From Clostridiaceae bacterium (GTDB taxonomy: Bacteria; Bacillota; Clostridia; SK-Y3): 39,150 nt of DNA. Below are positions 26,914 through 31,777 of this stretch, in pieces. Under the pieces are notes generated by a model that was given only the letters and a program-made list of their open reading frames with translations, ran no database searches and was not told the DNA's origin. The stretch spans positions 80,648-119,797 of the forward strand of contig JAAYHJ010000016.1 of the NCBI GenBank assembly GCA_012735465.1. Direction: 5' to 3'. The translations under genes and the position numbers were made by a program. How positions within the stretch are numbered: the first letter of the stretch is position 1; every line of letters begins with the position of its first letter.

Positions 26914-29082
26914 TTAGCTGCTTTTATTGCTGTCTTCCGGCCTAAGATAATAACCTATGGCAGGTATGTTTTTGGTCCTATAATAATCCGGATTGCTCAG
27001 ATGCACCTCATCCATTGTTTTTACTTGTACCAAGGTGCTTCCTTTTTTGGAGCGCATTACTTGCACTCCCTGGGCATCCCGCATGCTCTTTTCAGGAATG
27101 CTGCTTGTCTTAAAAATCAACACCTTGTTTATACTGCTAAAGGCAACTAATTCCGTGTCCTGTTGCAAATACATGATATGGACCAGCTTTGCCTGATTAG
27201 CATATGCCCGTGAAAGCTTTTTCCTGTTGGTTTTTGTAACATAGCTATCCAATCTAATTTTAGCCACCTTACCATTATCAAAGGAGAACAGCATGTGGCC
27301 GGAATAATCGGTGGTTGATACCACATATATAATTGTTTCATCCTCTTCCAGGCTAAGAAGGTTGGGTAAATATTCCCCAAAACTGCTTGCCTTGCAATCA
27401 GGAATTTCATGCAGTTTTCGTTTATACACATTATGCTTATTGGTAAACAAAAGCAAATCCGATTTATTGCTTGTCTCAATCTCTTGAATAATTTCATCAT
27501 CTTCTTTAAGCTTTTGGTCAGCACTTCCCCTTAAAGAAGTCAAAGGTATCTTTTTCAAATACTGCTGCTTTGTCAAAAATATTTTTACATTGTAGTCATC
27601 TACCAGATGTTCTTCAGGTATTTCTAGAATTTCATCTTCAAAAATTATCTCGGTACGTCGGGGTTGTCCGTACTTTTTAGATATTTCTTTCAATTCCTTT
27701 ATAATGATATTTTTTATCTTTCCTTCATCATTAAGGGTACTGCGCATCTCCTTAAGTTCTTTTTCCAAGTGTTCTATCTCGTTTATTCGGTTTAATATGT
27801 ATTCTTTATTCAGATTTCTTAGTTTAATTTCTGCTATAAACTCAGCCTGTACCAAATCAATATCAAACCCTTTCATCAAATTTGGTACAACATCCGCATC
27901 CTGGGCCGTATTCCGAATTATATGAACAGCCTTGTCAATATCCAGCAGGATCCTTTCCAATCCTTTTAACAGATGAAGCTTCTCCTCTTTTTTATTTATA
28001 TCAAAGGCAATTTGTCTTTTTTTGCAGTTTATTCTAAAATCAGCCCACTCCTTTAAAATTCCTGCAATCCCCAATACCATCGGCGTACCCTTTATTAATA
28101 CATTAAAATTGCAATTAAACGTATCCTGTAAAGGAGTCAACCGGAATAACTTGTTCATAATTTTATCCGGCTCTGTGTTTTTCTTCAGGTCTAAAGTAAT
28201 CTTCAATCCATTAAGATCAGTTTCATCCCTCACATCGGTTATATCTTTGATTTTTCCTGTTTTAACCAGATCAACAATTTTATCTATGATTGCTTCAACT
28301 GTTGTGGTATATGGGATTTCATAAATTTCTATACAATTATTTTTCTTATCGTACCTGTATTTTGCCCTGACCTTAAAACTGCCTCTTCCTGTGCGGTATA
28401 TTTGTTCCATTTCCTTTTTATCATAGATAAGTTGGCCTCCCGAAGGCAAATCCGGTGCCTTTAGGGTATCTAAAATATCAGTATTTTCATTTTTTAAAAA
28501 AGCAATGGTAGTATTACATAACTCCACTAAATTAAAGCTGCATATATTACTGGCCATACCTACAGCTATGCCCTGGTTGGGATTTGCCAATATATTGGGA
28601 AATGTGGTAGGTAAAAGAACCGGCTCCTTACATGTACCATCGTAATTATCTATATAGTCCACGGTGTTTTTATCTATATCTTTAAAAATCTCTTCGCAAA
28701 TTTTATCCAGCTTTACTTCAGTATATCTTGGAGCTGCAAAAACCATGTCACGGGAATATTGCTTTCCAAAATTTCCCTTAGAATCCACGAAAGGATGCAG
28801 CAGAGCACCATTCCCGCGGGTCAGCCTTACCAATGTCTCATAAATGGCCATATCTCCATGGGGATTGAGCCTCATGGTTTGTCCTACAACATTTGCTGAT
28901 TTTGTTCTCCCCCCGGTCAATAAACCCATCTTATACATGGTATACAGTAACTTGCGGTGCGAAGGCTTAAATCCGTCTATTTCGGGTATTGCCCGGGAAA
29001 TAATTACGCTCATAGCATAGGGCATGTAATTTTTTTCCAATGTTTCTGTGATTTTTTGTTCTATTATATTTTCAGTTGACAT
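26914..29082 (-). CDS. parC: Type IIA topoisomerase A subunit (ParC/GyrA-like, clostridial second pair)
   Basis: Breakage-reunion subunit of an ATP-dependent type II topoisomerase. The 722 residues have MPYAMSVIISRAIPEIDGFKPSHRKLLYTM at the N-terminus (winged-helix region), NPHGD in place of the usual HPHGD, and the catalytic Tyr120 in AAPRYTE. A coiled-coil tower spans about 350-460 (KKRQIAFDINKKEEKLHLLK and EIEHLEKELKEMR). The C-terminal third has beta-pinwheel-like repeats but no canonical GyrA box, arguing for a relaxing/decatenating enzyme rather than gyrase. ATG at 29082, not the GTG at 29091, follows AAGGGTGGGACTT. It lies 34 bp after the B subunit. The ParC name is an assignment by architecture; the family also goes under 'gyrase A-like'. 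Confidence 0.85.
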   Translation of the reverse strand: MSTENIIEQKITETLEKNYMPYAMSVIISRAIPEIDGFKPSHRKLLYTMYKMGLLTGGRTKSANVVGQTMRLNPHGDMAIYETLVRLTRGNGALLHPFVDSKGNFGKQYSRDMVFAAPRYTEVKLDKICEEIFKDIDKNTVDYIDNYDGTCKEPVLLPTTFPNILANPNQGIAVGMASNICSFNLVELCNTTIAFLKNENTDILDTLKAPDLPSGGQLIYDKKEMEQIYRTGRGSFKVRAKYRYDKKNNCIEIYEIPYTTTVEAIIDKIVDLVKTGKIKDITDVRDETDLNGLKITLDLKKNTEPDKIMNKLFRLTPLQDTFNCNFNVLIKGTPMVLGIAGILKEWADFRINCKKRQIAFDINKKEEKLHLLKGLERILLDIDKAVHIIRNTAQDADVVPNLMKGFDIDLVQAEFIAEIKLRNLNKEYILNRINEIEHLEKELKEMRSTLNDEGKIKNIIIKELKEISKKYGQPRRTEIIFEDEILEIPEEHLVDDYNVKIFLTKQQYLKKIPLTSLRGSADQKLKEDDEIIQEIETSNKSDLLLFTNKHNVYKRKLHEIPDCKASSFGEYLPNLLSLEEDETIIYVVSTTDYSGHMLFSFDNGKVAKIRLDSYVTKTNRKKLSRAYANQAKLVHIMYLQQDTELVAFSSINKVLIFKTSSIPEKSMRDAQGVQVMRSKKGSTLVQVKTMDEVHLSNPDYYRTKNIPAIGYYLRPEDSNKSS

Positions 29083-29116
29083 AAGTCCCACCCTTCAGTT
29101 TATTTTTGATATGGCA

Positions 29117-31108
29117 CTATACTACATCTATCATATCGATATACTTATATCCATTTTCAGAAATGAAATCCTTCCTCCCCTGCAAATTATCTCCTAACAA
29201 GAGGTCAAACATTTTACTGGTCTTTTCTGCATCTTCCGGCAACACTTTTATCAACCTTCTTGTCTCCGGATTCATGGTAGTCTGCCACATCATCTCCGGT
29301 TCATTCTCCCCAAGCCCCTTGGAACGTTGAATGGTATACTTTCCTTTTATTTTTGATAAAATAAGGTTTTTTTCTTTTTCCGAATATGCAAAATAAGTCT
29401 TAAACTTGGTATTTATTTCATACAGCGGGGATTCGGCAATATATACCTTCCCTTTTTCTATCAAGGTAGGCACAAGGCGGTACAGCATTGTAAGGATAAG
29501 CGTTCTTATCTGAAATCCATCCACATCTGCATCGGTACATATGATAATCTTGTTCCACTTCAGATTATCCATATTAAATGAATTCAAATCCTTATTATGC
29601 CTGGACTTTATCTCCACTCCGCAGCCCAGTACTTTCAGTAAGTCTACAATAATATCACTTTTAAAAATTTTATCATAATCTGCTTTTAAGCAATTCAATA
29701 TCTTACCTCTGACCGGCATAACCGCCTGAAACTCAGCATTTCTTCCCATTTTGCAGGCACCTAATGCTGAATCACCTTCTACAATATAAAGCTCCCTGAT
29801 CGAAACATCTTTTGTACGGCAATCTACAAATTTTTCAACACGGTTGCTTATATCAATATTTCCGCTTAACTTCTTTTTTACGTTTATCCTTGCCCTTTCA
29901 GCTGTTTCCCTGCTTCTTTTATTTATCAACACCTGGTCGGCAATTTTATCTGCTTCCTCTTTATTTTCTATAAAATAAACCTCCAGTTGCTCCTTCAAAA
30001 AATCGGTCATTGCTTCCTGTATGAATTTATTTGTAATTGCCTTCTTTGTCTGGTTTTCATAGCTTGTGATCGTCGAAAAAGAATTGCTTACCAGTATCAG
30101 GCTGTCTTGTATATCCACAAAACTTATCTTACTTTCGTTTTTATTGTACTTGTTGTTTTTCTTTAAATACTGGTCAATTTCATATACAAAAGCATTTTTA
30201 ACAGCCCTGTCCGGTGAACCTCCGTGCTCCAGAAAGCTTGAATTGTGGTAATATTCCAAAAGATTAATTTCATTGTTAAAACAAAAGGCAATCTGAATCT
30301 TTACCTTGTATTCAGGCTTGTCCTCCCTGTCCCTGCCCCGTCTTTCCGTTTCATAAAACTGTATTTTTGTAAACCCTTTTTGTTGGTCAACTTCCTTAAT
30401 ATAATCAATAATACCGTTTTCATAGTAATAGATATATGGGTTTTCGATACTTGCCGGTTCAAGCTCATCGTAAAAAATGAATTTTACACCTGCATTGACC
30501 ACTGCCTGCTTTTTCAGCGTTGTTTTAAAATATTCAGCGGGGATTTGGATATCCGTAAATACCTCGATATCCGGTTTCCATTTTATAATGGTTCCCGTAT
30601 GTTCATATTGACAGGGTTCTTTTTTTAGTCCACCTATGTTTTCTCCTTTTTCAAAATGCAAGCTGTATTTAAATCCGTCCCGATAGACAAAAACATCCAT
30701 GTACTCAGAACTGCACTGGGTTGCACAACAACCCAACCCATTTAATCCTAAACTAAACTCATAATTTTCATTTTCATTATTATTGTATTTACCTCCGGCA
30801 TACAGCTCACAGAAAACCAGCTCCCAATTATATCTTTGCTCTTTTGTATTATAATCGACGGGAATACCCCTGCCCTTGTCCTTAACCATTATAGAGTGAT
30901 CTTTAAAACGGGTAACCTCGATTACATCCCCATAACCCTCCCTTGCCTCATCAATGGAATTGGATAGTATTTCAAAAAACGAATGCTGGCATCCTTCAAT
31001 TCCATCGGATCCAAAAATAACTGAAGGACGTAAACGTACCCGATCAGCACCTTTAAGGGCAGATATGCTTTCATTACCATATTCGGACTTCTTTATTTCT
31101 TTTCCCAC
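29117..31108 (-). CDS. parE: Type IIA topoisomerase B subunit (ParE/GyrB-like)
   Basis: ATPase subunit partnering the A subunit downstream. About 663 residues. GHKL ATPase motifs: EILSNSIDEAREG (Mg-binding Asn), KDKGRGIPVD, and GLNGLGCCATQCSS where GLHGVGAS is usual; the transducer domain follows, then TOPRIM with YIVEGDSALGACKMGRN and CTDADVDGFQIRTL, and SKGLGENEPEMMW near the C-terminus. Start choice: GTG at 31108 follows AGGTGGGGG by 5 nt and gives the usual GKEIKKSEYGNESISALKG start; the longer frame begins at 31159, inside the -10/transcription-start region of the promoter at 31151-31179, so it cannot be used from that promoter. Confidence 0.87.
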   Translation of the reverse strand: MGKEIKKSEYGNESISALKGADRVRLRPSVIFGSDGIEGCQHSFFEILSNSIDEAREGYGDVIEVTRFKDHSIMVKDKGRGIPVDYNTKEQRYNWELVFCELYAGGKYNNNENENYEFSLGLNGLGCCATQCSSEYMDVFVYRDGFKYSLHFEKGENIGGLKKEPCQYEHTGTIIKWKPDIEVFTDIQIPAEYFKTTLKKQAVVNAGVKFIFYDELEPASIENPYIYYYENGIIDYIKEVDQQKGFTKIQFYETERRGRDREDKPEYKVKIQIAFCFNNEINLLEYYHNSSFLEHGGSPDRAVKNAFVYEIDQYLKKNNKYNKNESKISFVDIQDSLILVSNSFSTITSYENQTKKAITNKFIQEAMTDFLKEQLEVYFIENKEEADKIADQVLINKRSRETAERARINVKKKLSGNIDISNRVEKFVDCRTKDVSIRELYIVEGDSALGACKMGRNAEFQAVMPVRGKILNCLKADYDKIFKSDIIVDLLKVLGCGVEIKSRHNKDLNSFNMDNLKWNKIIICTDADVDGFQIRTLILTMLYRLVPTLIEKGKVYIAESPLYEINTKFKTYFAYSEKEKNLILSKIKGKYTIQRSKGLGENEPEMMWQTTMNPETRRLIKVLPEDAEKTSKMFDLLLGDNLQGRKDFISENGYKYIDMIDVV

Positions 31109-31135: not shown

Positions 31136-31189
31136 TGATATGCTCTTTTCACAATACATGAAACAACTGTTCGTGTCAAGAGCATATCA
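31136..31189. repeat. Perfect 12-bp inverted repeat bracketing the topoisomerase promoter
   Basis: TGATATGCTCTT at 31136-31147 and AAGAGCATATCA at 31178-31189 are exact reverse complements with 30 bp between. The core promoter lies inside, one arm covering the -35 edge and the other the start point. Partial symmetry continues inward (CAC at both sides after two mismatches). Confidence 0.85.
31151..31179 (-). promoter_or_regulatory. Promoter of the topoisomerase operon
   Basis: -35 TTGACA (31174-31179), exactly 17 bp, -10 TATTGT (31151-31156). Transcription should begin near 31144. The -35 overlaps the right arm of a perfect 12-bp inverted repeat. Confidence 0.75.
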
Positions 31190-31223: not shown

Positions 31224-31658
31224 CTAATATGCATAAGGACCCGCGCCATAGCCTGGCCCATATCCAAGGCCATATCCCGGACCATAACCATAACCCGGTC
31301 CATACCCTCTTCTCTGCAACAATTCCCGAATCAGCAAGATGCTTATTAAATCTCTAAAAAGTCGTCGTCTTCCAATAATTTGTTGTGTCGCACCTTCGGA
31401 TGTTATCTCATAATCCCTTAGCATTTCAGGGTATTTGTCCCTGCATTCATAAAAAATTTCATCTGCTGCAGCTTCTACAATTTCATAGCTGGGATATGGA
31501 TACATCATTGGGTTATAAGGATTATCCATTTCCTCGCATTTCCTTCTGACCATGGGATAAACAACATAATAAACATCCGGATATCTCATTGGTTCATAGT
31601 CCATCATATGAGGATAGTACCTCTGCATATAATCTTGATAATAATTATAATTATACAT
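31224..31658 (-). CDS. Tyr/Gly-rich spore-coat-like protein with GYGPGYG tail
   Basis: A 144-residue protein of unknown family. The first third is Tyr-, Met- and Pro-rich (MYNYNYYQDYMQRYYPHMM), like many coat or exosporium proteins. A middle region (about 60-115) has a more globular helical look with two Cys in the whole protein (VRRKCEEM and FYECRDK). The last 27 residues are repeats of GYGPGYG. No signal peptide. ATG at 31658 follows AGGAGG by 7 nt; an in-frame start ten codons upstream lies in the ribosome-site region. A sigma-K-like promoter candidate precedes it. The coat role is an inference from composition and promoter. Confidence 0.7.
   Translation of the reverse strand: MYNYNYYQDYMQRYYPHMMDYEPMRYPDVYYVVYPMVRRKCEEMDNPYNPMMYPYPSYEIVEAAADEIFYECRDKYPEMLRDYEITSEGATQQIIGRRRLFRDLISILLIRELLQRRGYGPGYGYGPGYGLGYGPGYGAGPYAY
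31227..31310 (-). repeat. Tandem GYGPGYG-coding repeats
   Basis: The 3' end of the Tyr/Gly-rich gene consists of near-tandem repeats of roughly 18-24 bp coding Gly-Tyr-Gly-Pro units, visible on the plus strand as repeated CCATATCC/CCATAACC blocks. Such tracts vary in length by slippage. Confidence 0.75.
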
Positions 31659-31704
31659 TTCCAAACCTCCTTTACATTTTCTTGACAAACTATTTATTCA
31701 GTAT

Positions 31705-31743: not shown

Positions 31744-31777
31744 AATAGTTACGCACTTTAATGCGTAACTATTTTCC
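31744..31777 (-). terminator. Terminator after the SLH-GH18 gene
   Basis: AATAGTTACGCA / TGCGTAACTATT, a 12-bp stem with 6-base loop at 31744-31773, followed on the minus strand by CTTGTTTTTG and on the plus strand by TTTCCC. It lies 7 bp past the stop. Confidence 0.88.

Follow-up and report, generated by a model that had tools for sequence, protein, structure and literature searches.

The stretch of DNA that we have analysed (39,150 nucleotides from a Clostridiaceae bacterium, referred to here as the window) carries a perfect 12-bp inverted repeat that encloses the promoter of a type IIA topoisomerase operon, and the question that this locus raises is which element controls the promoter: the arms of the repeat, which the sequence-only reading suggested as the operator of a dimeric regulator or as a cruciform-forming supercoiling sensor, or another element located between them. 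Our analysis is concerned with the operon and its promoter, with the sequence that lies in the promoter spacer and its conservation in relatives, and with the inverted repeat itself.

The operon and its promoter

Both genes of the operon are located on the minus strand: the first (29117..31108) encodes a ParE/GyrB-like type IIA topoisomerase B subunit with the Pfam domains DNA_gyraseB, Toprim and DNA_gyraseB_C, and the second (26914..29091) encodes a ParC/GyrA-like A subunit with the Pfam domain DNA_topoisoIV; the domains of both genes support the assignment to a type IIA topoisomerase operon that had been made from the sequence alone. The B subunit scores 518.8 bits against the gyrase B model, under the cut-off of 740, and 421 bits against parE_Gpos, where the cut-off is 900, while the A subunit scores 424 bits against a ParC cut-off of 813. 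A separate, canonical GyrB is also encoded in the genome (1033 bits, with a cut-off of 882), and an operon that joins the B and A subunits, alongside a separate gyrase, is the arrangement of topoisomerase IV; no canonical GyrA-box was seen in the A subunit when its translation was read by eye. Because both subunits fall below the curated cut-offs, GyrB is separate and the A subunit is without the canonical GyrA box, we use the name "topoisomerase IV-like" (ParE/ParC-like).

The likely true start codon of the ParE-like gene is a GTG (31106..31108, minus strand) that follows the ribosome-binding sequence AAGGTGGGGG, shares the reading frame of the stop at 29117 and aligns with the ATG of two sister genera (G002 and G003); the ATG at 31159, i.e. 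the start of the mechanically called open reading frame, falls inside the promoter spacer. The consensus scan places a -35 box TTGACA at 31174..31179 and a -10 box TATTGT at 31151..31156, both on the minus strand and separated by a 17-nt spacer, which matches the sigma-70 consensus at 10 of 12 positions and is the promoter that the sequence-only reading had described. Across six genera the -35 box is invariant and the -10 box reads TA(T/A)TGT; transcription is expected, judging from the -10 box, to start near 31144.

Upstream of the operon, a 154-aa open reading frame (31224-31688) ends in a Gly/Tyr/Pro-rich C-terminal repeat (GYGPGYGYGPGYGLGYGPGYG) and has no Pfam or NCBIfam match; between this frame and an SLH/glycosyl-hydrolase-18 gene, an intrinsic-terminator-like hairpin with a 13-bp stem is located at 31744-31773 of the minus strand.

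A predicted LexA box in the promoter spacer

Wholly within the spacer between the -35 and the -10 boxes, at 31160..31173 of the minus strand, we have found the sequence CGAACAGTTGTTTC, which fits the Gram-positive LexA/SOS (DinR/Cheo) box GAAC-N4-GTTC/T, placing a predicted operator over the promoter; B. subtilis has the LexA operator GAAC-N4-GTTC, and clostridia have GAAC-N4-GTTT/C (PMC4234289). It is the sole match to CGAAC-N4-GTTYS in the window, with 0.13 expected. Scored with a position weight matrix built from lexA and recA boxes only (21 training sites), the parE box reaches 12.4 bits, below all of the training sites (the lexA and recA boxes of the family score 13.4-21.5), and is thus of a weaker kind, its centre being imperfect and one of its ends asymmetric; sites that score at least as high number eight in 433 kb, the parE site included, and three of these are lexA boxes.

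In its bare form, the pattern CGAAC-N4-GTTYS is no commoner in the genome than its control (10 matches vs 12), a result that favours reading the LexA-like sequence as a chance match within an ordinary constitutive promoter; since the bare pattern is uninformative in this genome alone, we have relied on its conservation and on its coupling to the promoter instead. The close comparison covers five further genera of the family (G001-G005): ahead of the orthologous gene, all five keep the block CTTGACAC(G/A)AAC-N4-GTTT-N2-TGTA(T/A)TGT, with a single mismatch in the LexA box of one of them (G003), while the sequence outside the block differs among the genera; in the DNA search of the relatives, the promoter block was matched on its own. 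Over a wider set of 82 upstream regions of clostridial orthologues, TTGAC followed by a LexA box (within 5 nt and with at most one mismatch) occurs in 17, of which 15 are exact, and in none when the reverse-complement or reversed controls are used; many of the more distant orthologues in this set are without the box, whereas Tepidibacter thalassicus (L071), a culturable species, is one of the relatives that have it. The shorter pattern GAAC-N4-GTT is found in 17 of 76 upstream regions, vs 2.3% of random 360-nt pieces, and, among the loci of greatest similarity (L069-L087), in 11 of the 18 whose upstream sequence is long enough. For the pattern TTGACACGAAC-N4-GTT, a search of 60 related genomes gives 16 matches, and its reversed control gives none. 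Set against a block that is conserved in six genera, against controls that count zero and against these 16 matches, a coincidence is extremely unlikely.

LexA and RecA in the same genome

The genome contains one lexA gene (93.5 bits), whose product, read by eye, has the Ala-Gly cleavage site, the GDSM serine and the TVKRF lysine of a self-cleaving protease. This gene is divergent from a small LysM-domain membrane-type gene (YneA-like), with three LexA boxes in between (locus L053, 1272-1483, contig C47 of the same genome), a layout that further genera of the family share. The recA gene has the box GAACACTTGTTC upstream, and a box is present at recA in each of the six family genomes; thus LexA, with its cleavage and catalytic residues, and RecA are both present in the genome with boxes of their own. 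No GAAC-N4-GTT occurs in the 300 nt upstream of the canonical gyrB of this genome. Upstream of uvrB, a usual LexA target, the genomes of the family show no box of the strict pattern, so that the local LexA consensus is only partly mapped.

What we observe is the box, where it lies, how it is conserved, and that the genome encodes both LexA and RecA; taking these observations together, we consider it highly probable that the topoisomerase IV-like operon, with its sigma-70-type promoter, is repressed by LexA and that this repression is relieved by DNA damage; binding, repression and induction are predicted here from the operator position and from homology. A LexA dimer would occupy CGAACAGTTGTTTC and, because its site falls within the 17-bp spacer, would block RNA polymerase; upon DNA damage, RecA would promote the self-cleavage of LexA, and the operon would be switched on within the SOS response. 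The proposal of the sequence-only reading that a dimeric regulator acts at this promoter by blocking it agrees with control by LexA, but its assignment of the operator to the arms, with looping between them, does not, since the predicted operator is the LexA box inside the "loop".

Two further observations concern LexA-type sites in sister genera. In one of them (G004, contig C74, locus L044, 1012-1315), a LexA-type promoter (CTTGACACGAACAGGTGTTTGGTGTATACT) is located before a small open reading frame whose match to a WYL domain is weak (E 0.0038, below the cut-off); this frame adjoins a fragment of a UvrA-like ABC ATPase and is possibly a further SOS gene. In another (G002), three identical TTGACACGAACATATGTT sites occur at the start of contig C18 (positions 1526, 3600 and 5674; L200, L202 and L203) with a spacing of exactly 2074 bp, which suggests a tandem repeat of a LexA-controlled unit.

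Comparison with known LexA systems

The control of parE-parC by LexA has already been reported for S. aureus, where parE-parC is regulated via the site CGAACGTACGTTTG and gyrase is not (review, PMC11442139), and in Lactobacillaceae parEC is a LexA target predicted by comparative genomics (PMC3616900). The clostridial locus shares with S. aureus the gene pair and its order, the operator family upstream of parE and a separate gyrase without a LexA box; it differs in that its proteins diverge from the named ParE/ParC models (421 vs 900 bits for parE_Gpos), that its regulation is predicted from sequence, and that it carries an extra inverted repeat, which does not appear in the excerpted description of S. 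aureus (PMC11442139). With the Lactobacillaceae (PMC3616900), it shares parEC as the LexA target, in another lineage. In C. difficile (PMC4234289) and in C. acetobutylicum (PMC3828012), the same GAAC-N4-GTTC/T box is found at lexA and recA; however, the text of the C. difficile paper names neither topoisomerase nor parE, and parE is absent from the final list in the excerpt on C. acetobutylicum. If LexA does control the operon, the SOS response in a broad set of Clostridia would turn on a second, divergent type IIA topoisomerase, and the LexA-parEC link known in Staphylococcus would extend to Clostridia.

The inverted repeat around the promoter

The arms of the repeat, TGATATGCTCTT (31136-31147) and its perfect reverse complement AAGAGCATATCA (31178-31189), neither of them assigned to a strand, are 12 bp long, with 30 nt between them and their centres 42 bp apart, and can be extended to 17-nt arms with 15 of 17 positions paired and two mismatches. 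Both the arms and their placement are as first described: the upstream arm (31178-31189) takes in the first TT of the -35 box, and the downstream arm (31136-31147) covers the transcription start expected from the -10 box.

At a spot chosen beforehand, a 12-bp repeat of such geometry has a probability of ~0.004 with first-order Markov flanks and of ~0.0008 when estimated from the genome's own non-coding DNA; the repeat nevertheless exceeds chance only weakly, because the spot was picked after the fact from the whole window. The non-coding DNA of the genome has three distinct comparable repeats in 61 kb, i.e. ~1 per 20 kb, and therefore ~0.3 would be expected in the non-coding part of the window. 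More generally, the genome is rich in 12-bp inverted repeats, at about twenty times the Markov expectation: in the 394 kb of stretches that serve as its background there are 43 perfect inverted repeats of at least 12 bp, vs ~2 in Markov sequence, of which 19 have loops of at least 15, vs ~1, and the window itself holds 7 perfect ones of at least 12 bp with loops of 3-60.

The perfect arms around the promoter, the low probability at a pre-chosen spot (~0.0008-0.004) and a centre distance that is close to 4 x 10.5 bp, about four helical turns, would suit the operator of another dimeric regulator that loops across the promoter, alone or with LexA. However, none of the five sister genera has the arms: there, the sequence of the downstream arm is not kept and only the inner CTT of the upstream one remains, at the -35 box, so that the seemingly conserved positions are those of the promoter itself; the genome-wide search, which the sequence-only reading had advised for the half-site, finds no second copy of the arm 12-mer, and there is no candidate regulator. 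Looping through the arms is thus very unlikely. The unique genomic copy and the lack of conservation led us to reject a dedicated regulator that uses the arms, and mobile-element ends were rejected on the occurrence of the arms at 31136-31189 only.

The sequence-only reading had looked to conserved arms with compensatory changes, and had named a repeat unconserved in related species as grounds for abandoning its proposal; this is the case here, given the absence of the arms in all five genera. In four of these (G001-G004), repeats around the core reach 5-7 nt at most, a length to be expected by chance. The LexA promoter of the fifth (G005) is flanked by a 12-bp repeat of another, AT-only sequence, with the low-complexity arm TATTTAAAAAAT and with arms at -36/+49 from the -35 box, vs -10/+32 in the window; we have rejected it as structural conservation on account of its AT-only arms, their other positions and the four genera with nothing above chance.

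Cruciform extrusion, by which the promoter would sense supercoiling and the topoisomerase would regulate itself, could draw on the repeat of G005 and on the single-strand fold energy of the 54-nt strand, which is -12.8 kcal/mol (DNA parameters; z = -5.1), but this z-score only reflects that the repeat is there, and the structure is unconserved in G001-G004 and of different geometry in G005. Extrusion of a cruciform across a 30-nt loop is, moreover, unfavourable. With unconserved arms and no support beyond one genome, we give the supercoiling sensor a minimal probability. Only slightly greater is the chance that the LexA promoter of this lineage, and perhaps, by an independent route, that of G005, has gained from a fast-evolving inverted repeat a further level of control, through structure or a second regulator, that would couple the SOS repression to supercoiling.

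A transcript that enters from further upstream would contain both arms, which could then pair, as the repeat would have to do if it acted in the operon leader as an attenuator or terminator hairpin in RNA. The operon's own transcript, though, is unable to form the stem, because only the downstream arm follows the expected start site; the repeat has no Rfam match, and there is no terminator-like site at it, the one found being at 31773-31744. The probability of such a hairpin is next to negligible, and an RNA hairpin or riboswitch was rejected on the lack of an Rfam match and on the location of one arm upstream of the start.

The preferred reading, with LexA at the spacer box, leaves the 12-bp inverted repeat as a feature of this lineage that is most likely incidental or else the trace of a template switch during copying, an origin that we infer: the sequence GATATGCT is common to the arms and to the beginning of the coding region, which is conserved (direct repeat at 31062/31137), and therefore the repeat may have arisen by a local template switch. 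If LexA does act at the spacer box, the locus is also a caution that a shorter, conserved operator can be overlooked when a perfect inverted repeat encloses the promoter.

Elsewhere in the same genome (locus L172, 4896-6766, at ~64.9-66.8 kb of contig C94), four perfect inverted repeats of at least 12 bp, with loops of 19-34 nt, are clustered within 2 kb.
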